Origin: a virus
Direction: 5' to 3' (one strand)
DNA: 32,121 nt
IMG/VR virus record: IMGVR_UViG_3300008110_000234
Coordinates: 1-32,121 of that record
Part shown: piece after piece, positions 2,499-29,563 of the stretch
Numbering within the stretch: the stretch's first letter is position 1
How the letters are laid out: each line of letters opens with the position of its first letter
The notes under the pieces: generated by a model
What the model was told of the DNA's origin: nothing
Databases searched by the model: none
Seen by the model: only the letters and a program-made list of their open reading frames with translations
Made by a program: the position numbers and the translations under genes

Positions 2499-2536
2499 TT
2501 GCACAATTCAGAAAGTTGTCATATTTTTGTGACAAC
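2499..2536 (+). promoter_or_regulatory. Early-type promoter with overlapping palindromic operator, site 1
   Basis: The -33 TTG (2499-2501) is followed after exactly 20 bp by the -7 element TATTTTTG (2522-2529). The -7 element is the centre of a perfect inverted repeat with 7-bp arms, GTTGTCA (2515-2521) and TGACAAC (2530-2536). The same composite occurs at 13.84, 23.60, 27.64 and 29.55 kb. It reads into the two plus-strand genes starting at 2577 and 2830, with a 5' leader of ~40 nt. The promoter match is to a known consensus; the operator role of the dyad is inferred from its repetition. Confidence 0.8.
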
Positions 2537-2576: not shown

Positions 2577-2837
2577 ATGAAAACTTTGGAAATTGGCAAA
2601 AAATATCACTTACACAACGGATGGGCAAAAACATTTGAAGATGTTTGGTTCAACAATTCAGAATTGATTTCAGTTGAAGAATTGCAAAATGGTTTAGTTG
2701 AATATTTCTTCAAAACTGAACAAGGACAAACCATCATCATTGATGGTGAATTAATCAGACAATTCCACAAACCTATCACAACAAAATGTTGGATGTTCAT
2801 TGAATCACAAACACAAAATCACAACAATCATGAATGA
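2577..2837 (+). CDS. Small plus-strand cassette protein, unknown function
   Basis: 86 aa. The start at 2577 is chosen because the frame upstream of it runs through promoter site 1, and because the ATG has the A/C-rich leader (AATCACACATC-ATG) shared by the early genes. The product (MKTLEIGKKYHLHNGW...) is a small soluble protein, probably a beta-barrel or SH3-like fold judging by alternating hydrophobics, with no membrane segment. I do not recognise a family. It overlaps the next gene by 8 nt and forms a two-gene cassette transcribed against the surrounding tail and head genes. Its location and early-type promoter suggest an accessory (moron) gene, perhaps acting on the host or its defences; that is inference. 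Confidence 0.75.
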   Translation: MKTLEIGKKYHLHNGWAKTFEDVWFNNSELISVEELQNGLVEYFFKTEQGQTIIIDGELIRQFHKPITTKCWMFIESQTQNHNNHE

Positions 2838-3174
2838 AAGAAAAACTGCAAGTTATTGGCTTTTGATTACTGCCCTGAATACTGCAAAATATGCCATTGT
2901 AGAACTTGAACCATCCGGAATGAAATTCCAACACAAACAACAATTCACAATGCTGCAAAACGCAATTCATGGATTCCTGTCAAACATACAAAAAAAAACA
3001 AGTAAGGAAGACAAAGAACTTTTGGATTCAATGTCTTTTGAAAATGTTGCTGCCCTTGCTGAAACATTTGCAATGATTTCCCAAATTCCTGAACCACAAA
3101 TTGAATGGTTTTTGAATGAAACAAACAAATTGGTTTATGCTTCTGTGAACAATGAAAGAATGAAATCTAAATAA
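2830..3174 (+). CDS. Second plus-strand cassette protein, helical, unknown function
   Basis: 114 aa, started at MNERKTASYWLL because that ATG follows the leader AATCACAACAATC and overlaps the end of the preceding 86-aa gene. An earlier in-frame ATG at 2800 would overlap more. The protein looks mainly alpha-helical, with a conserved-looking C-terminal part (ENVAALAETFAMISQIPEPQIEWFLNETNKL). No known domain is recognised. The stop codon (3172-3174) touches the AT-rich start of repeat element C, and a terminator hairpin follows at 3204-3236. It is the distal gene of the early-promoter cassette inserted between the tail and head modules. Confidence 0.75.
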   Translation: MNERKTASYWLLITALNTAKYAIVELEPSGMKFQHKQQFTMLQNAIHGFLSNIQKKTSKEDKELLDSMSFENVAALAETFAMISQIPEPQIEWFLNETNKLVYASVNNERMKSK

Positions 3175-3273
3175 AATATTTATTATTATTCTTTCTTTAT
3201 TGTATGCCATTCAGGAACATCTTGAATGGCATTTTTGGCACAACAAGATGTGCCATTTGGGAACAACTGAAAG
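3174..3273 (+). repeat. Iteron element C (AT-rich tract plus three 23-bp-period dyads)
   Basis: Starts with AAATATTT and an A/T-only stretch, then CTTTCTTTATTGT, then three 18-bp dyad units beginning at 3214, 3237 and 3260, an exact 23-bp period. The best unit is GGCACAACAAGATGTGCC (3237-3254); the others are GGAACATC... and GGAACAAC.... It is about 60-70% identical by eye to element B (16381-16479, inverted) and shares layout with element A (27081-27183). It lies between converging genes. The first unit is partly remodelled into a terminator hairpin. Confidence 0.75.
3204..3236 (+). terminator. Rho-independent terminator of the 2.6-3.2 kb cassette
   Basis: ATGCCATTCA (3204-3213) pairs with TGAATGGCAT (3223-3232), a 10-bp stem with a 9-nt loop, followed by TTTTT. 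It is correctly placed 30 bp after the plus-strand gene and overlaps the first iteron of element C. Confidence 0.75.
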
Positions 3274-3275
3274 AA

Positions 3276-3593
3276 TCAGAAATCAATCTTGTTTGGTCTG
3301 AAATAGGAATAATGATTTGCCAAAATTGAATAGATTGATGACTGTTCCAATGGCAATATTTTTGCCATTTCACCAATTGCTTTTTGCTTCCCATATCTTT
3401 CCAAATATTCAGGATATATTTTCAGCACAACAAATCTGTTCACAATTGATTGCCGGATGATGTTGTGTTGAATCAAAAATCTGATGATGGTGCTGATTTC
3501 ACCAATGCCAACATCCTTGAATTGTTCATCAATCAATTCACAAAACAACTTGTTTGCATATTTCCTTTTTTTGCAGATGATGCCCTGAATCAT
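3276..3593 (-). CDS. Small phage protein downstream of the tape measure, unknown
   Basis: 105 aa (MIQGIICKKRKYANKLFCEL...). The start at 3593 is chosen because it forms an ATGA overlap with the stop of the preceding gene; an upstream ATG at 3644 would overlap it by 55 nt. The protein is basic and helical. The C-terminal part (KQKAIGEMAKILPLEQSSIYSIL) looks like a helix-turn-helix, so DNA binding is possible. It is last in the tail transcription unit and converges with the plus-strand cassette. I recognise no family. Confidence 0.65.
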   Translation of the reverse strand: MIQGIICKKRKYANKLFCELIDEQFKDVGIGEISTIIRFLIQHNIIRQSIVNRFVVLKIYPEYLERYGKQKAIGEMAKILPLEQSSIYSILANHYSYFRPNKIDF

Positions 3594-3823
3594 TGATATG
3601 TGTTTCTGAAAAAATATATCACCTTTGATACACAATTCCTGCATGACAAATCTTTTTCCATTTGCTTCTTTGCTGATGTTCCCTTTGGAATCCTTGCAAT
3701 GTGCCTGTAATAGAATGAAAACAATTTTTTGATGTCTTCCCTATCAAATGAAAAAGAATTGTTCCTTGCAAGGATTTCTTTGATTTCAGGTGTGTGTTCC
3801 TGTGGAATTTCTCTAATGTACAT
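3590..3823 (-). CDS. Small protein following the tape measure gene, unknown
   Basis: 77 aa (MYIREIPQEHTPEIKEIL...), starting 2 bp after the tape measure stop and overlapping the next gene by ATGA, so clearly part of the tail operon. It is charged and helical, with a C-terminal CRNCVSKVIYFF segment containing a CxxC pair. It has no signal peptide or obvious enzyme motif, and no function is assigned. Confidence 0.65.
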   Translation of the reverse strand: MYIREIPQEHTPEIKEILARNNSFSFDREDIKKLFSFYYRHIARIPKGTSAKKQMEKDLSCRNCVSKVIYFFRNTYQ

Positions 3824-13836: not shown

Positions 13837-13860
13837 TGTTGTCATATTTTTGTGACAACA
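13837..13860 (+). promoter_or_regulatory. Early-type promoter with palindromic operator, site 2
   Basis: The best dyad of the set: TGTTGTCA (13837-13844), -7 element TATTTTTG (13845-13852), TGACAACA (13853-13860), 8-bp perfect arms. Upstream, TTTTTTTATTCAAAATG is nearly identical to the region upstream of site 3. It drives the plus-strand gene at 13896 with a ~35-nt leader and is back-to-back with the minus-strand tail promoter. Confidence 0.85.
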
Positions 13861-13895: not shown

Positions 13896-14561
13896 ATGAA
13901 AATCACAACATCAACAGAACTTTGCCAATGGTCATCAATTGCAGCACAAATCATTGAAACAGCAATTGAAAAGGTACTAACACCTGAAATGATTGCACAA
14001 CTTGAACATGATGCAATCAACAAAAAACAGGAAAATTGGGGAAAATGGATTGGTCAACAGGTAAAATTCAACCTGACCATGAAACAGGGAAATCTTGTTT
14101 CCAAAAACCTGTTCAAATTGATTGAATCAGGATGGCACATTGAACACAATGGAATCAAATTTCAATTGCCAATGAACATCACATGTTTTGAAATGCACAG
14201 CAGAACAGGAAAATTTGGTGAATATATTCAGGTTCAATTCTGTTTTTTTGTCCTGCCTGATGAAACATTGATTGAACCATCAAAAACAGATTTTACAAAT
14301 TTAATTGGTGAATGTGTTTTTGTGGATGGATGGCAAAATGACAATGGTGGAACAATTTTGGATGGAATAATTACATCAATAGAATATTTTGGTGAAAAAT
14401 ATGGTCACACCACATATAAAATCAGCACAAAAAATGGCAATACTACATTGCCCTGTTATATACTTCAAAACCTTTTGGACAAAGGTAGTTATCAATCAAA
14501 TCCCCTTCTTAATACAGGGACTAATGCTGTACTGAATCCGAAAATAAAACAACAAAGATAA
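13896..14561 (+). CDS. Single-gene plus-strand cassette, 221-aa protein of unknown function
   Basis: Starts at MKITTSTELCQWSS. The ATG follows the early-gene leader (ACACATACAGTC) and lies ~35 bp after promoter site 2; the longer frame from 13836 begins inside the operator and cannot be transcribed from it. The first ~65 residues are helical (AQIIETAIEKVLTPEMIAQL). The rest is beta-rich (FGEYIQVQFCFFVLPDETL), with no membrane segment or catalytic motif that I recognise. The gene has its own promoter and a strong terminator and is inserted between terL and the tail genes in the opposite direction, the classic layout of a phage moron. A role in host takeover, exclusion or anti-defence is possible but unproven. 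Confidence 0.8.
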   Translation: MKITTSTELCQWSSIAAQIIETAIEKVLTPEMIAQLEHDAINKKQENWGKWIGQQVKFNLTMKQGNLVSKNLFKLIESGWHIEHNGIKFQLPMNITCFEMHSRTGKFGEYIQVQFCFFVLPDETLIEPSKTDFTNLIGECVFVDGWQNDNGGTILDGIITSIEYFGEKYGHTTYKISTKNGNTTLPCYILQNLLDKGSYQSNPLLNTGTNAVLNPKIKQQR

Positions 14562-14567
14562 ATCAAC

Positions 14568-14593
14568 AGCCACAGCAATGTGGCTTTTTTTTT
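14568..14593 (+). terminator. Rho-independent terminator of the 13.9-14.6 kb cassette
   Basis: AGCCACA (14568-14574), loop GCAA, TGTGGCT (14579-14585), followed by a run of T to 14593. It starts 7 bp after the plus-strand stop codon, and its T-run overlaps the stop codon of the converging large terminase gene. Confidence 0.9.
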
Positions 14594-15898: not shown

Positions 15899-16370
15899 TG
15901 TTTTTTGATTTTTCAAGTTCATCAATTTTTTTGATTGCCCATTCAATCCCTGAATCACCACCCCATGCATCCCACATCAAACCACCACACCCATCTGTGT
16001 ATGACACATTTTTGTTCTGCTGATGTCTTTTGAATGCTGCCATCCTTTTGATTGTTTCAATGCTGATGTTTTCCTTGTTAGCCAATTGTCTTGCCCTTGC
16101 CCAACCAACCAATGTGCCACATCCATTTTTGTTGTTGTTCTTTTCCCTGAATTCAATTGCCCTTTTTGCATTGTTTGTTGCTGCTTCCGGATAGTCATTG
16201 AATGTTTCTGCTTCTGCCCTGATTGCTTTTGCTTCTGATTCATATGTCATGGAACAAACACCATATCTTTGTTTGACATCAGGATATTCTTTGAACATCT
16301 GTTCATCTGACATGCATCTGTCAAGAAAGAACATTGATGATTCACCTTTTTTTGGTATTGGTATTGGCAT
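15888..16370 (-). CDS. 160-aa protein with a phage NNAKRAIEFR-type domain
   Basis: MPIPIPKKGESSMFFLDRCM... contains ATNNAKRAIEFREKNNN, CGTLVGWARARQLANKENIS, ETIKRMAAFKRH and a C-terminal GLMWDAWGGDSGIEWAIKKI. This combination recurs in phage and prophage proteins, sometimes fused to head or packaging proteins, and looks like a helical nucleic-acid-binding module. Two or three Cys (C19, C38, C77-like positions) may be structural. The ATG follows the leader AACACACATC and begins 10 bp after iteron element B. It probably belongs to packaging or head assembly, but the function is not established. Confidence 0.6.
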   Translation of the reverse strand: MPIPIPKKGESSMFFLDRCMSDEQMFKEYPDVKQRYGVCSMTYESEAKAIRAEAETFNDYPEAATNNAKRAIEFREKNNNKNGCGTLVGWARARQLANKENISIETIKRMAAFKRHQQNKNVSYTDGCGGLMWDAWGGDSGIEWAIKKIDELEKSKNNEK

Positions 16371-16380
16371 GATGTGTGTT

Positions 16381-16479
16381 TTTCAGTTAGGCATTTTTGG
16401 AACAACTTGTTGTGCCTTTTTGGAACAACTTGTTGTGACCAAATGGCACACAATAAAGAAAGAATAATAATAAATATTT
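16381..16479 (-). repeat. Iteron element B (inverted copy)
   Basis: In minus orientation: AAATATTT (16479-16472), an A/T-only tract and CTTTCTTTATTGTGTGCCATT, then dyads. On the plus strand the units start at 16399 (GGAACAACTTGTTGTGCC), 16422 (the same with one inserted A) and 16445 (GGCACA half-unit), an exact 23-bp period. It fills the gap between the small terminase gene and the 160-aa gene. Its first ~40 bp are almost identical to element C. Confidence 0.8.
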
Positions 16480-20465: not shown

Positions 20466-20473
20466 TACATTTG
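20466..20473 (+). promoter_or_regulatory. Possible -7 element for the 20505 gene (TACATTTG)
   Basis: TACATTTG fits TAnnTTTG and lies 31 bp before the plus-strand ATG. It lacks both a well-spaced TTG and the TTGTCA/TGACAA dyad, so this cassette is probably not in the five-site regulon. Confidence 0.4.
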
Positions 20474-20504: not shown

Positions 20505-20840
20505 ATGAATGCCCTGAAAACCTGTGTTGTGATTGTTGCTGATTTGATATCTGAAATTGGTTCAATCACAGAAGATAAAAAAATCACATTTGGTGAAATT
20601 CTTGGTCTTGCACCTGAATTGATGAAAATACCTTCACTTGTTGCCAACATGCCATTGGCATTGGCAGAACTAAAACAAGGAATTTCTGACCAATATCTTG
20701 CAGAAATCAAATCTGATGTTGCAAAAAAACTTGACCTAAAAAATGACAAATCTGAAAAGATTGTTGAAGCATGTGTCAATTGGCTTGTCATCACTTCTGC
20801 AACAGTTTTTGAAATTAACAATGCAGTCAAAGCAAAATAG
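20505..20840 (+). CDS. Plus-strand 111-aa helical protein, unknown
   Basis: MNALKTCVVIVADLISEIGS..., all-helical by pattern, with a central LAPELMKIPSLVANMPLALA segment and a C-terminal WLVITSATVFEIN helix that is hydrophobic but has polar breaks. It is the third gene transcribed against the flow, and a very clear terminator follows 26 bp after its stop. It could be a small membrane-associated or structural protein; no family is assigned. The early-gene A/C leader is weak here (TTTTATCACAAAATC upstream). Confidence 0.7.
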   Translation: MNALKTCVVIVADLISEIGSITEDKKITFGEILGLAPELMKIPSLVANMPLALAELKQGISDQYLAEIKSDVAKKLDLKNDKSEKIVEACVNWLVITSATVFEINNAVKAK

Positions 20841-23248: not shown

Positions 23249-23542
23249 TTATAGTGATGTGTATAATCCGGTTATCTGTGTGAAAATTTGCTGCAATTGG
23301 TCACAATATACATTATTGAATTTTGCTTTTGTGACAATGGTGAAATCTTTCTTTGCTGTGAAGAATTCCATGTCATATGTGTCCATTGAATTCAAGGTGA
23401 TTTTTAGCCATTTAGCACCTGATCTGTTTCTTGAAAGATTCATTCTTAATGAATTTTTGTCTGCAACATAGTTTTTTGAACCTGTCATCAATGTGAATCT
23501 TTTTCCACCTAATTGTTGAAGAATTGTTTGTGCAACTTGCAT
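23249..23542 (-). CDS. 97-aa conserved phage protein (LGGKRF-GSKN type)
   Basis: Start at 23542 (MQVAQTILQQLGGKRFTLMT). The frame also has an ATG at 23596, but that lies inside the -7 element of promoter site 3 and cannot be in its transcript; 23542 has the leader AATCACACACATC. LGGKRFTLMTGSKNYV, LRMNLSRNRSGAKWLKITLN and DTYDMEF recur in small phage and plasmid proteins of unknown function. It is the first gene of the site-3 operon leading to exonuclease and SSB, so it is likely an early DNA-metabolism protein. Confidence 0.7.
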   Translation of the reverse strand: MQVAQTILQQLGGKRFTLMTGSKNYVADKNSLRMNLSRNRSGAKWLKITLNSMDTYDMEFFTAKKDFTIVTKAKFNNVYCDQLQQIFTQITGLYTSL

Positions 23543-23588: not shown

Positions 23589-23610
23589 GGTGTCACAAAG
23601 ATATGACAAC
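23589..23610 (-). promoter_or_regulatory. Early-type promoter with palindromic operator, site 3
   Basis: Minus strand: GTTGTCA (23610-23604), TATCTTTG (23603-23596), TGACACC (23595-23589); one mismatch in the second arm. Upstream TTTTTTTATTCAGAATG closely matches site 2. It starts the operon 23542 to ~20940, with a ~47-nt leader. Confidence 0.85.
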
Positions 23611-23626: not shown

Positions 23627-24100
23627 TTATTCTGCAAGTTTTTTGAAAATATTTTTTGCAAGAAATGCCAATTTGAATGCATCCCTTTTGTCCTGTTCTG
23701 TTTTGTTGCCTTTATAATTGTTTACTGTGCTATATTTTGCAAACAATGGAATGATGTCTTGATGTGTCAATTTCCTTCCTTTTGCCTTTGGGGAAATTTC
23801 ATAAACATGTTTCAACTTGTGTTTTGCATAGTCAAAAAACATTTGGCTGATTGCCTGATTCATCCCAACATTTCTGCTGATTTTTTTATCCTTCCTTACA
23901 TTGCCTGTCCTGATGAATGTCACATTCTGCAAATTGCTATTTTCGATGACCATCACAACATCATCAGGATTCAGGTCATCAACAAATTCAACAAAGGTGA
24001 TAAAGCTACCTATTTTGGGAAAATTTATTGTGTCCCCTTCGATCAGGCAACAACCAATCCCATCCTTTCTGAATGCAGGGTCAATTCCAATATATATCAT
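23627..24100 (-). CDS. RuvC-like Holliday junction resolvase
   Basis: 157 aa. RNase H-fold acidic residues are visible: MIYIGIDPAFRKDGIG (first Asp), VVMVIENSNLQN (Glu), and EQDKRDAFKLAFLAK (terminal Asp pair), the RuvC order. The central basic segment (GNVRKDKKISRNVGMNQAI) fits the DNA-binding helix. It would cleave four-way junctions during recombination and clear branched DNA before packaging. It overlaps the glucosaminidase gene by 20 nt and ends just before promoter site 3. Confidence 0.85.
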   Translation of the reverse strand: MIYIGIDPAFRKDGIGCCLIEGDTINFPKIGSFITFVEFVDDLNPDDVVMVIENSNLQNVTFIRTGNVRKDKKISRNVGMNQAISQMFFDYAKHKLKHVYEISPKAKGRKLTHQDIIPLFAKYSTVNNYKGNKTEQDKRDAFKLAFLAKNIFKKLAE

Positions 24101-24527
24101 ATTTTTCTAATTTTTTTTGTTTAACAATTTTATAAATGAATGCCCAATATTCTGAACTTTCCCCATATCCTTTGAAATTTGCCCAATGTGCAGCAGATTT
24201 CCGGCATCCGGATTGATAATGTTCTGAAAGGAATCTTGCATGTTCCCAATATCCCTGAAATACTGTGTCAAATGCTTTCCATTTTGTTCCTGATTCTGAT
24301 GTGATGAATTGTCCATCCTTTGAAAAATGCATCATTCCAAAGTGATTTTTGGCTGTCTGTGCAATGATTGACTTTCCACCACCTGATTCAACAATTGCCT
24401 GTGCAATCTGAATTGATGTTGGAATACCAAACACAACTTCACAAATCTTTGCATTCAGCAGATTACATTGGATATATTGTTCATGTGTGTTTGATGTCCC
24501 AAAAAATGCTAAAAATATGTAAATCAT
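24081..24527 (-). CDS. Glucosaminidase-type peptidoglycan hydrolase with N-terminal signal-like segment
   Basis: 148 aa. MIYIFLAFFGTSNTHEQYIQ resembles a short signal or anchor. The rest is a FlgJ/LytG-like glucosaminidase domain: GIPTSIQIAQAIVESGGGKS (catalytic Glu in the VESGGG turn), TAKNHFGMMHF, KWKAFDTVFQGYWEHARFL. Its position between the methyltransferase (ATGA overlap) and the RuvC gene is unusual for a lysis gene. It may be an accessory muralytic enzyme or be made early. A second endolysin (16897-17523) is better placed for lysis. Confidence 0.8.
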   Translation of the reverse strand: MIYIFLAFFGTSNTHEQYIQCNLLNAKICEVVFGIPTSIQIAQAIVESGGGKSIIAQTAKNHFGMMHFSKDGQFITSESGTKWKAFDTVFQGYWEHARFLSEHYQSGCRKSAAHWANFKGYGESSEYWAFIYKIVKQKKLEKYDIYWN

Positions 24528-25955: not shown

Positions 25956-26819
25956 TTATAGACATAATCTTTTCATGTATTCAAAAACCAATAATTTTGA
26001 ATAGATTCTTTTTGCAGGTTCAATTGTTTGTTCTGCATTCTGCATCAACTTTCTTTTTGCTGCCCTTGCTTCTGTCATGTTGGAATAATTCCTTGACTGC
26101 TCAATCAATTCCTTTTTAGCCAATTGTTTTGCCTGTTCCCAAATCTGTCCTTTGAATTCCCTGTCATCTTCAATCCATCCATTTGCACATGCAATTTCTG
26201 CATAAAATACAGGAACATCTTCCCATCCATCCCATTCAATTTCTTCACCTGATTGCATTGAAATCAACTTATCTTCTAAATCTTGCAAAACTGATTCAAT
26301 TGCCCTTCTATTTTTTTCTTCCCTTTTTGCTGCTTCAAATTCTGCATCTTCATACATTTTTTTCAAATTTATGACATCTGAAAGGATTTTGTTTCTGAAT
26401 TTCAAATATGCTGAAAGGATATCCCCCAACATTGCAATTGTAAACTGTCCATAAAATGATGACAATGTGATTCCATCCCAATAATTTGCTGCTGCCATGC
26501 TGAATGCTTCCCTAATTTCCTGAACACCCAACATTGGAAAGTTTTTATAAATGAACCGCACACATTCTTGAATACTTTCAGGTAGCATTTTGTCTTCCTG
26601 CATCCCTGAATACATCTTTGCACAAATCACAACCATTGCAGAAACAGAATTGACAACATCTGTTTTGTCCATGTTCCTGATTTGGTTTTCATGCCCTGCA
26701 ACAATCAATTTGATTCTTTCTTCTTTGCATTGGATATTAGTCAAGTTCAAATGTTGCAGATTGTTTGATGAAATTTGCAATTGATTCTTTGCCTGTTGAT
26801 TTTTGATTTGTAGTTCCAT
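25956..26819 (-). CDS. Replication-associated protein, possibly helicase loader (lambda P-like position)
   Basis: 287 aa, all-helical and charged (VVNSVSAMVVICAKMYSGMQ; GVQEIREAFSMAAANYWDGI; long Glu/Lys coiled region at ~160-260). No Walker motif is visible, so an ATPase loader of the DnaC type is unlikely. It follows the O-like initiator with an 83-nt overlap, and the leader (AATCACAAAATC) lies within that gene. By the O-P order in lambdoid phages it may load or bind the replicative helicase. The family is not recognised, and the function is inferred from position. Confidence 0.5.
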   Translation of the reverse strand: MELQIKNQQAKNQLQISSNNLQHLNLTNIQCKEERIKLIVAGHENQIRNMDKTDVVNSVSAMVVICAKMYSGMQEDKMLPESIQECVRFIYKNFPMLGVQEIREAFSMAAANYWDGITLSSFYGQFTIAMLGDILSAYLKFRNKILSDVINLKKMYEDAEFEAAKREEKNRRAIESVLQDLEDKLISMQSGEEIEWDGWEDVPVFYAEIACANGWIEDDREFKGQIWEQAKQLAKKELIEQSRNYSNMTEARAAKRKLMQNAEQTIEPAKRIYSKLLVFEYMKRLCL

Positions 26820-27495
26820 GATTTTGTGATTTTGTGTGTGATTGATTCAAATATTCTTTGCTGATGAATGTTCCCTGCCAACCATTGGCAATACATGTGT
26901 CAATTGATTCCAAAACTGCCCTTTCTGAATACTTTTCTGCCTGTTGGATGAATTGGTCAACCTTTGTACTAATTGATTTGTCTGACTTGAATTTTTTGCC
27001 AATTTCAACCCTGTATTCAAAAAACTTTTGGATTCCTTTTTTCAAATCTTCTGAAATTGATTCAGGCAAATCAAATAAAGAAATATTTCTTTTTCTTTCT
27101 TTCTTAATTGTAGGCAATTTGGGCACATCCTGTTGTTCCTTTTGGGCACAACTTGTTGTTCCATTTGGGCACAACTTGAAAGATAGGTTCTGAACACATT
27201 CTGCATCAATTTTGAAATGCAATGTTGCCGGACATCCCTTCAATTTTGTTTTTAGCAATCCGGCATTCTCCAACCTGTCAAATGCTTTTCTTTGCACTTT
27301 TGCAGATAGTGTTGTTGAATCCTGAATCTGTTGACCTGTCCTGAAAAACCAATCTTCAATTCCATCATGCAGAAACATTTTTTGTGCTGATGCTAATTCT
27401 GCATAGATGATTGATGCATCCAATCCAATCTGCTTTGCAAGTTCTTTGTTGATTGCCAAAAATGGTGTATCAATTATCATTTTTAATGCATTCAT
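26737..27495 (-). CDS. Lambda O-like replication initiator with internal iterons
   Basis: 252 aa from MNALKMIIDTPFLAINKELA; this ATG follows ACAAAATC and is preferred over 27522. Residues ~15-95 form a winged helix (SIIYAELASAQKMFLHDGIE; LSAKVQRKAFDRLENAGLL). Residues ~105-135 are a linker encoded by iteron element A. The C-terminal part (FFEYRVEIGKKFKSDKSIST...SIDTCIANGWQGTF) is a DnaD/replisome-organiser-type domain. It probably binds its own gene at the iterons and recruits the replisome. It is served by promoter site 4 and a structured ~130-nt leader. Confidence 0.8.
   Translation of the reverse strand: MNALKMIIDTPFLAINKELAKQIGLDASIIYAELASAQKMFLHDGIEDWFFRTGQQIQDSTTLSAKVQRKAFDRLENAGLLKTKLKGCPATLHFKIDAECVQNLSFKLCPNGTTSCAQKEQQDVPKLPTIKKERKRNISLFDLPESISEDLKKGIQKFFEYRVEIGKKFKSDKSISTKVDQFIQQAEKYSERAVLESIDTCIANGWQGTFISKEYLNQSHTKSQNHGTTNQKSTGKESIANFIKQSATFELD
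27081..27183 (+). repeat. Iteron element A inside the initiator gene (candidate ori)
   Basis: AAATATTT at 27081, then a pyrimidine-rich AT tract and TAATTGTAGGCAATT, then units starting at 27122 (GGCACATCCTGTTGTTCC), 27145 (GGCACAACTTGTTGTTCC) and 27168 (GGCACAAC half-unit), an exact 23-bp period. Because 23 is not a multiple of 3, the same DNA word is read as KLCPN, SCAQK and DVPK in successive copies, so conservation is for DNA. The layout matches lambda ori: dyad iterons within gene O beside an AT-rich tract. Confidence 0.8.
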
Positions 27496-27511
27496 GATTT
27501 TGTAAAATAGA

Positions 27512-27612
27512 AAACCGGACATTCAAATGTTTGTAGGGAAAACAAGTGAACAATCCGGTCATGTTGCCAAATGCCTGTTGGCATCTGAAAAGAACAGATG
27601 GATTCCCTACTT
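27512..27612 (-). ncRNA. Structured 5' leader of the initiator gene with predicted pseudoknot
   Basis: In the transcript from promoter site 4, GUAGGGAA (27610-27603) can pair with UUCCCUAC (27540-27533). Within that loop ACCGGA (27559-27554) can pair with UCCGGU (27519-27514) lying downstream of the first stem, giving an H-type pseudoknot. Inside are two mutually exclusive hairpins, CAUCUG/CAGAUG (27600-27595 with 27587-27582) and AUGCC/GGCAU (27584-27580 with 27575-27571). It lies 17 nt before the ATG. The pairing is read from sequence; the regulatory role is inference. Confidence 0.5.
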
Positions 27613-27627
27613 CCATATGCTCTTTTC

Positions 27628-27647
27628 TTATCACAAAGATATGACAA
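27628..27647 (-). promoter_or_regulatory. Early-type promoter with palindromic operator, site 4
   Basis: Minus strand: TTGTCA (27647-27642), TATCTTTG (27641-27634), TGATAA (27633-27628); one mismatch in the second arm. Upstream TTATTCAATAAA resembles the other sites. It lies directly after the 28-aa membrane gene and feeds the initiator gene. Confidence 0.8.
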
Positions 27648-27670: not shown

Positions 27671-27757
27671 CTAATTTTTTTTCAATTGCAATGTGATGCC
27701 AATTCCAAGACAAACACCACCAATGAAAATAAAAACTGTTGCTGCAAAACTAAACAT
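27671..27757 (-). CDS. 28-aa membrane micro-protein
   Basis: MFSFAATVFIFIGGVCLGIG begins a single hydrophobic helix ending in LQLKKN. The ATG overlaps the stop of the preceding 154-aa gene and the frame ends 23 bp before operator site 4. The overlap supports translation; the short length makes it uncertain. It could be a small membrane regulator or part of a lysis/exclusion function. Confidence 0.45.
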   Translation of the reverse strand: MFSFAATVFIFIGGVCLGIGITLQLKKN

Positions 27758-28214
27758 GTGATTCTGATTTTGATTTTGAATACTTTCTTTTTTCCCCCCT
27801 GATTTTGACTGAATGTTCTGCCAATGTCTTCTGAACCTTCTGTGAATTTGGATGCAATTTCCTGATGAACTTGATGATTGCACAAACAAATTGCATTTTG
27901 GAATTCAATGAACCCTGTTTGACAACTGTGTCAACAATCCACCTTTTGCCCTGATCTGTGATTCCCAAAACAAAACATGTTTCAAGAATTGATTCAATCA
28001 TTTCTGCTTTGGACACACCCAAATTGGTAGCCTGTTCTGTGATGAATGCATCTTCTTCCTGCTGAAATCCCAACATCATTGTCCGGATATAATTATTGTC
28101 TTGATTCAAAGTTTTGAATGATATTATTTTTGGCATCCCTGAATGCTGTTGTGTCATAACAGCATTCAGACATACATCAACATTCCCTGAAAATTTTATT
28201 CTGATTGTTTTCAT
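27750..28214 (-). CDS. 154-aa early protein, unknown
   Basis: MKTIRIKFSGNVDVCLNAVM..., with an alpha-helical middle (AFITEQATNLGVSKAEMIES then ILETCFVLGIT) that resembles a helix-turn-helix, and a basic C-terminus (KIRGEKRKYSKSKSESHV). It overlaps the ERF gene by ATGA, implying translational coupling with the annealing protein. A DNA-binding partner in recombination, or the regulator of the five-site regulon, are possible roles. No family is recognised. Confidence 0.55.
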   Translation of the reverse strand: MKTIRIKFSGNVDVCLNAVMTQQHSGMPKIISFKTLNQDNNYIRTMMLGFQQEEDAFITEQATNLGVSKAEMIESILETCFVLGITDQGKRWIVDTVVKQGSLNSKMQFVCAIIKFIRKLHPNSQKVQKTLAEHSVKIRGEKRKYSKSKSESHV

Positions 28215-28801
28215 AATGATGAAATTGTGTCTTTTTGTTCTATGGTTAATTGATAATTTTGAAATGCTTTGTTCATCCTTTCTGTCTTTTCTGATTCAAC
28301 TGCCTGAATCCATGCAACCAATGCTGTGAACTGTTCTTCATTGACTGTCTTCTGTGTCTTCTGTGTCTTTAAATTCGCCTGTGTGATGACTTTTGTTGAT
28401 GATTGTGCATCATCATCCACATCAACAGAAATATTCAGCATAGCTGAAAATTGATATCTTTTTGCATAGGTTATTCCACCACCCAAATCTTGCAATGAAT
28501 TTGTTCCTTTGTTCCCCTGCATTGGTGAAAATGGCATCTTTGCACCTAAAAATTGACCTGATGTGTGATATATTGTTGTCACTAAATAATCACCTGCCAT
28601 TGCCTGAACAACAACCAATCCACATTCTGACAACAATGGTCTGCATGTGTGCAGGATGTTGTCAAAAGAAACATATTTGTTTCTTAAATGCTCATTCTTT
28701 TTGTCCTTTTCCAATTTTACATTTTGGAATTTTGTTTGAAATTTGACCAATGCTGCAATGATACCTTCAATGTTTTCTGTTTGAAATGTGTGCTGTTCCA
28801 T
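28211..28801 (-). CDS. erf: ERF-family single-strand annealing protein
   Basis: 196 aa. The ERF signature is present: HLRNKYVSFDNILHTCRPLL near residue 40, ECGLVVVQAMAGDYLVTTIY, the TSGQFLGAKMPFSP turn, and GGGITYAKRYQFSAMLNISV followed by DVDDDAQS (the Y-A-K-R-Y box and Asp cluster). ERF proteins anneal ssDNA in phage recombination and recircularisation. It works with a YqaJ exonuclease, here encoded ~6 kb further down. The ATG follows the leader CACACATACAAAATTTTTAAATC-type. The C-terminus overlaps the next gene. Confidence 0.9.
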   Translation of the reverse strand: MEQHTFQTENIEGIIAALVKFQTKFQNVKLEKDKKNEHLRNKYVSFDNILHTCRPLLSECGLVVVQAMAGDYLVTTIYHTSGQFLGAKMPFSPMQGNKGTNSLQDLGGGITYAKRYQFSAMLNISVDVDDDAQSSTKVITQANLKTQKTQKTVNEEQFTALVAWIQAVESEKTERMNKAFQNYQLTIEQKDTISSL

Positions 28802-29543: not shown

Positions 29544-29563
29544 TTGTCACAAAGATATGACAA
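29544..29563 (-). promoter_or_regulatory. Early-type promoter with palindromic operator, site 5
   Basis: Minus strand: TTGTCATATCTTTGTGACAA (29563-29544), a perfect dyad with 6-bp arms around the TATCTTTG -7 element. T-rich sequence (TTTTTTTATTTAAAAAC) lies upstream, as at sites 2 and 3. It begins the early unit leading to ERF. Confidence 0.88.

Follow-up and report, generated by a model that had tools for sequence, protein, structure and literature searches.

Inverted repeats around the −7 promoter element in a family of Bacteroidetes phages, with covarying arms and a candidate ribbon-helix-helix regulator

Ribbon-helix-helix (RHH) repressors of phages and viral RHH regulators that act at multiple sites are already known, with Arc and AvtR as examples. 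Arc and Mnt of phage P22 are small phage-encoded RHH proteins that act on phage promoters, and Arc controls an immunity region, not five dispersed early promoters. AvtR of Acidianus filamentous virus 6 carries two RHH motifs per chain, controls its own gene and has eight potential sites in the viral genome, which share an imperfect inverted repeat (PMC5569661). In Bacteroidetes, sigma-ABfr promoters carry a −7 element TAnnTTTG, refined to TAHHTTTG, together with A/T-rich motifs at −18 and −28 and a weak −33 motif; in Flavobacterium johnsoniae the −7 element spans −12 to −5 and transcription starts 4–5 nt after it (PMC6847099). Neither phage operators on Bacteroidetes promoters nor a circuit controlling the early genes of small Bacteroidetes phages were found in the literature searched, which misses most subscription journals.

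The promoters described here resemble the Arc/Mnt case in that a small phage-encoded protein of predicted RHH fold would act on phage promoters, and single-chain Arc (1u9p) is the solved fold nearest to our candidate regulator. Unlike in Arc and Mnt, the Bacteroidetes −7 box forms the operator spacer, and the candidate protein, at 133–154 aa, is longer and has extra helices. The likeness to AvtR lies in a virus-encoded protein with RHH fold, an inverted repeat at several sites and control of its own gene, the fold and the self-control being predicted here; AvtR differs in its archaeal host and promoters and in a site whose description does not place it around a promoter element, and no sequence similarity between the candidate and AvtR was detected. 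The cores of our inverted repeats fit the sigma-ABfr −7 element, with A/T-rich DNA upstream, whereas the published consensus has no flanking inverted repeat. Cro-type shut-off in lambdoid phages is a working likeness, since we propose that an early product lowers early transcription including its own, but neither an HTH_3 (Cro/CI) repressor above its cut-off nor an integrase (PF00589) was found (0 of 12 records each, the window being short of an estimated 3 kb). The window, by which we mean the whole stretch of 32,121 bases that was analyzed, thus lacks the pair of HTH_3 repressor and integrase that defines CI/Cro temperate-phage immunity.

A terminase, head protease, tape measure protein, ERF recombinase, O-like replication initiator, RecE-type exonuclease and SSB are recognizable in the window, indicating that the record is a tailed phage, and most of its genes lie on the minus strand. 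A preliminary description had reported the dyad TTGTCA-N8-TGACAA around TATYTTTG at five positions on both strands, with perfect arms at three sites and one mismatch at two. Re-examination recovered all five sites with the same mismatches (Table 1). Distances from the end of the dyad to the next ATG are 41, 37, 47, 132 and 41 bp for sites 1 to 5, as expected from the spacing given earlier (35–80 bp, 132 at site 4); the value for site 4 uses the ATG at 27495, and an upstream ATG at 27522 of the same ORF gives 105 bp. Sites 3 to 5 follow the main gene direction, and sites 1 and 2 stand at the heads of reverse cassettes. Site 3 has a syntenic counterpart in five related records (G008, G009, G023, G024 and G026). 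Further downstream, the site-4 operon carries C5 methyltransferase, endolysin-like and resolvase-like genes; the endolysin-like gene (24081-24527, minus strand) has the methyltransferase and resolvase genes of this replication operon on either side and lies outside any lysis cassette.

Table 1. Promoter sites, candidate regulator and neighboring features in the window.
Feature	Position	Strand	Description
Site 1	2516-2535	+	Perfect dyad, TTGTCA-TATTTTTG-TGACAA; −7 box 2522-2529; heads reverse cassette 2577-2837 + 2830-3174
Site 2	13839-13858	+	Perfect dyad, TTGTCA-TATTTTTG-TGACAA; −7 box 13845-13852; heads reverse gene 13896-14561
Terminator-like hairpin	14568-14585		After reverse gene 13896-14561
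−7 box without dyad	20466-20473	+	TACATTTG, before reverse gene 20505-20840; internal contrast
Site 3	23590-23609	-	One mismatch, right arm TGACAC; −7 box TATCTTTG; heads 23249-23542 (phrog_9437, small gene)
Site 4	27628-27647	-	One mismatch, right arm TGATAA; heads O-like replication initiator 26737-27522
Candidate regulator	27750-28214	-	154 aa; predicted (single-chain) ribbon-helix-helix; same place in relatives
ERF-family single-strand annealing recombinase	28211-28801	-	PF04404, E 2e-19; anchor gene of early operon
Site 5	29544-29563	-	Perfect dyad, TTGTCA-TATCTTTG-TGACAA; heads ERF recombinase operon incl. candidate regulator
Strong terminator-like hairpin	29651-29619	-	15 pairs then T8; between tail-gene operon and site-5 promoter

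Dyads of this kind are rare by chance. In 300 first-order Markov resamplings of the window, the exact dyad occurred at a mean of 0.023 and at most once, compared with three observed copies; any perfect 6-bp dyad around TAnnTTTG occurred at a mean of 0.02 (three observed), and dyads with up to one mismatch around TAnnTTTG at a mean of 0.36 with a maximum of three (five observed). A relaxed pattern with three mismatches was uninformative, as its 56 matches are at chance level (58 in shuffles). Matches to the exact site in viral and bacterial collections were mostly due to chance, many of them in coding DNA, and one of these (L004 in G001) was rejected as a coding coincidence in an unrelated phage.

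All five cores, TATTTTTG or TATCTTTG, match TAnnTTTG and its refined form TAHHTTTG, which bears out the earlier assignment of the octamer to the Bacteroidetes consensus. The −33 region of the five sites shows a T-tract without a clear TTTG, and the published −33 motif is itself weak. If transcription starts 4–5 nt past the box as in Flavobacterium, the dyad would span about −18 to +2, so that both the −7 box and the start would lie beneath a protein bound to it. The gaps upstream of the packaging genes showed no clear TAnnTTTG box, and late control is thus not explained by the operator model. The similarity between sites reaches past the dyad, with TTTTTTTATTC (T-tract, ATTC) upstream and CAAATAAGG downstream, over ∼30 bp upstream and ∼10 bp downstream. 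From the window alone the five sites could therefore be copies of one cassette, and diverged relatives were sought.

A search with the terminase identified related phages at 63–67% identity, and the single-protein search with the replication initiator returned only G002, a near-identical record of the same phage, which was left out as independent support. The same architecture with different arms was present in at least ten dyad-bearing records from ∼7 independent lineages, a count that takes into account the near-copies (G002 of the window, G021/G022 and G023/G024). At syntenic promoters, G009 carries TTGTTA-TACCTTTG-TAACAA and, at a third one, TTATTA-TACCTTTG-TAATAA with both arms altered; G008 and G030 carry TTGTTT-TACCTTTG-TAACAA with a constant T-T mismatch. 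A pattern that left the inner arm letters free revealed further phages of the same family with the arms TTGTAA/TTACAA (G021/G022), TTGTTA/TAACAA (G023-G028) and TTGTCA/TGACAA (G029). The arms vary between phages and agree within one phage. Dyads head equivalent genes in different phages, i.e., the ERF operon and the phrog_9437 gene, and in G023 the sites before the ERF operon and the phrog_9437-like gene, with an imperfect site between them, follow the same order as in the window.

The two arms change together. At arm position 5, all 22 distinct sites have complementary bases, in the form of C-G, T-A or A-T pairs; when partners were shuffled, a mean of 9.7 sites were complementary and 22 was never reached in 20,000 trials, although this shuffle ignores relatedness. 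At arm positions 3 and 6 the same 22 sites showed no significant covariation. In trees of three structural proteins, C-type arms appear in two separate places, indicating at least two occurrences of the paired change, and the A-T pair type raises this to at least three; the trees rest on structural genes, and recombination occurs in phages. As the search required TAnnTTTG, variation within the core is confined to the two free positions of this motif. Of the 26 such dyads in these records, 25 enclose the −7 box, and together with the complementary change of the arms around a constant core this backs the proposed operator centered on the box. Judged from the sequences, the paired arm changes would very likely reflect selection for a two-fold symmetric protein site.

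The position of the palindrome relative to the box was compared by scanning for the best palindrome center in each phage group. This center lies at 3.5, midway through the −7 box, in every dyad-bearing group except G034, which has a partial dyad only. In a sister set made up of G003/G006/G040 and G005/G039, the best palindrome of the repeated promoter is located 9 bp downstream (L215 and L216 in G039, L091 and L092 in G005), as in TTGTATTACAATACAA, which overlaps the last letters of the box. In G038 (L213, L214) it is found 11 bp downstream of the box center. Another example of these shifted palindromes is GTTATACATTAATAAC. Each phage thus repeats its own promoter-plus-palindrome at two to five places, and the register to the box differs by clade, the shifted palindromes being less secure as they come from small samples. 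Centering on the box, as originally suggested, therefore holds for the dyad-bearing group and does not extend to the sister phages.

A repressor-type gene was sought in the genome, as the preliminary description had suggested, and the gene directly after ERF is a candidate of predicted RHH-like fold. The first 4 bp of this gene are shared with the end of the ERF gene, making it a member of the site-5 operon. In all readable ERF-bearing dyad phages the gene at this place belongs to one protein group, whose members are divergent (108–154 aa, about 20% identity); in the fragmentary records G021/G022, G027, G028 and G029, which have dyads, it was not found in the available sequence. A presence/absence profile gave no gene family that is common to all dyad phages and missing from the non-dyad ones, and the candidate was therefore picked by its position, as the gene diverges too fast for such a profile.

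In the AlphaFold model, the candidate forms a strand-helix-helix unit (E42-49, H52-65, H69-83; pLDDT 86–88). Among solved structures, RHH proteins fill the first seven places (Z 4.3–7.2), followed by a next match at Z 3.0 and unrelated folds at Z 3 and below. Permuted single-chain Arc (1u9p) scores Z 7.2, which is under 8 and within the range of background best hits, F TraY up to 6.1 and AvtR 4.3; for the sister-clade counterpart the top structure is F TraY (Z 5.0). Searches of the candidate against Pfam and PHROGs gave no significant match, the family profile matched CopG weakly over the full domain (E 0.15), and Foldseek with the candidate model gave a best E of 0.35 and no match among viral models. 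An hhalign comparison of the two regulator groups yielded an E of 0.0015 but a probability of 16.5%, so that their homology rests mainly on position. By position and predicted fold, we assign this gene with moderate confidence as the putative regulator of the dyads.

Based on these findings we propose that each dyad serves as an operator, with the host −7 box TAnnTTTG as its spacer, and is bound by a dimeric (two-fold symmetric) protein encoded by the phage. The bound protein would occupy about −18 to +2 and exclude RNA polymerase, so that a single regulator could turn off the ERF, replication and site-3 operons and the two reverse cassettes together. This regulator may be the fast-evolving RHH-like candidate; as it lies in the site-5 operon, it would also repress itself. 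Early genes would then be on at infection and go off once the regulator accumulates. A single regulator for the early operons and two reverse cassettes had been postulated before; the presence of a candidate in the same genome speaks for this, whereas a third reverse gene has a box without a dyad, so that the dyad is not present at every reverse cassette. What we infer here is the binding, which protein is the regulator, its repressing and not activating role and the early timing, and operator and phage-encoded regulator combined are a likely reading if another phage-encoded regulator than our candidate is allowed for.

Other explanations account for part of the data. A host regulator borrowed by the phage could bind the dyad, so that phage genes follow host physiology. 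The −7 box is itself a host sigma-factor signal (PMC6847099), which makes the phage dependent on host transcription, and the phage regulator is known as a candidate only, but TTGTCATANNTTTGTGACAA occurs just nine times in 84,980 species genomes, in single copies, at about the chance level and never in a phage promoter context. Moreover, arms that agree within a phage and differ between phages fit a phage-borne regulator, making a host protein unlikely. Unlikely too is that an extended strong promoter was copied within each phage and that its symmetry has no function. Such copying would explain the shared T-tract and downstream flank, and sister phages do repeat their own promoter block without a box-centered dyad; it accounts for sameness within a phage, but not for the joint change of left and right arms at position 5, nor for the variant third promoter of G009, in which both arms changed within one phage.

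Very improbable is an RNA hairpin, acting either as a terminator of opposite or upstream transcription or as a 5′ stabilizer. Sense-strand RNA of the sites folds at −7.9 to −12.3 kcal/mol, and a terminator-like call was obtained on the opposite strand of site 2. However, a start 4–5 nt past the box would leave only the right arm in the transcript, stems on the opposite strand are weaker (−4.6 at site 5, equalled by 48 of 200 shuffles), most sites are not followed by a T-run, and mismatches of the types A-C, T-T and T-C are commoner than G-U, unlike in RNA pairing. The protein at the dyad might also activate, or switch between activation and repression with dose as AvtR does, instead of simply repressing. 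AvtR, a viral RHH protein, is a repressor of its own gene and has activating as well as repressing effects on a neighbor (PMC5569661), but a site over the −7 box and the expected start is a polymerase-blocking position, and we consider activation about as unlikely as a host regulator.

For the phage-encoded repressor, a wider reading can be put forward tentatively, as possible but somewhat short of probable. According to this, a virulent Bacteroidetes phage family would keep its early genes under a self-encoded, rapidly diversifying single-chain RHH regulator, whose two to five dispersed operators are rewritten per lineage in concert with the regulator and are wrapped on the −7 box in one group and placed about one helical turn downstream in others. 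The literature searched contained no operator that is spaced by the −7 box, recurs over the early promoters of a phage and is rewritten by lineage. The phages offer a testable circuit with a defined operator, a candidate regulator and relatives with paired operator substitutions, and thereby a natural experiment in regulator-operator co-evolution. If the lineage-wise rewriting is true, they would form a natural series for following the joint evolution of an RHH protein with its operator. They might also supply Bacteroidetes, where regulatory tools are few, with a repressor/promoter pair that is compact and possibly orthogonal.

Besides these promoters, several further features of the genome were observed. 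The genome is probably circularly permuted and ∼35 kb in length, with the window ending at 1 and 32121, and synteny with G009 indicates that ∼3.3 kb are seemingly absent between the major capsid-like and tail-fiber genes. Two small overlapping genes on the minus strand (3276-3644 and 3590-3823) adjoin the tape measure gene and are kept in nearly all relatives at 44–53% identity, without a family match. Iteron-like units of 23 bp (TTTTTGGAACAACTTGTTGTGCC) form three clusters with the common flank TTCTTTCTTTATTGTA (27111-27182, 16365-16459 and 3203-3274) and, among seven records scanned, are restricted to the window and G002. These clusters are candidate replication origins, and one of them is located within the gene for the O-like replication initiator, just as O contains the origin of lambda.
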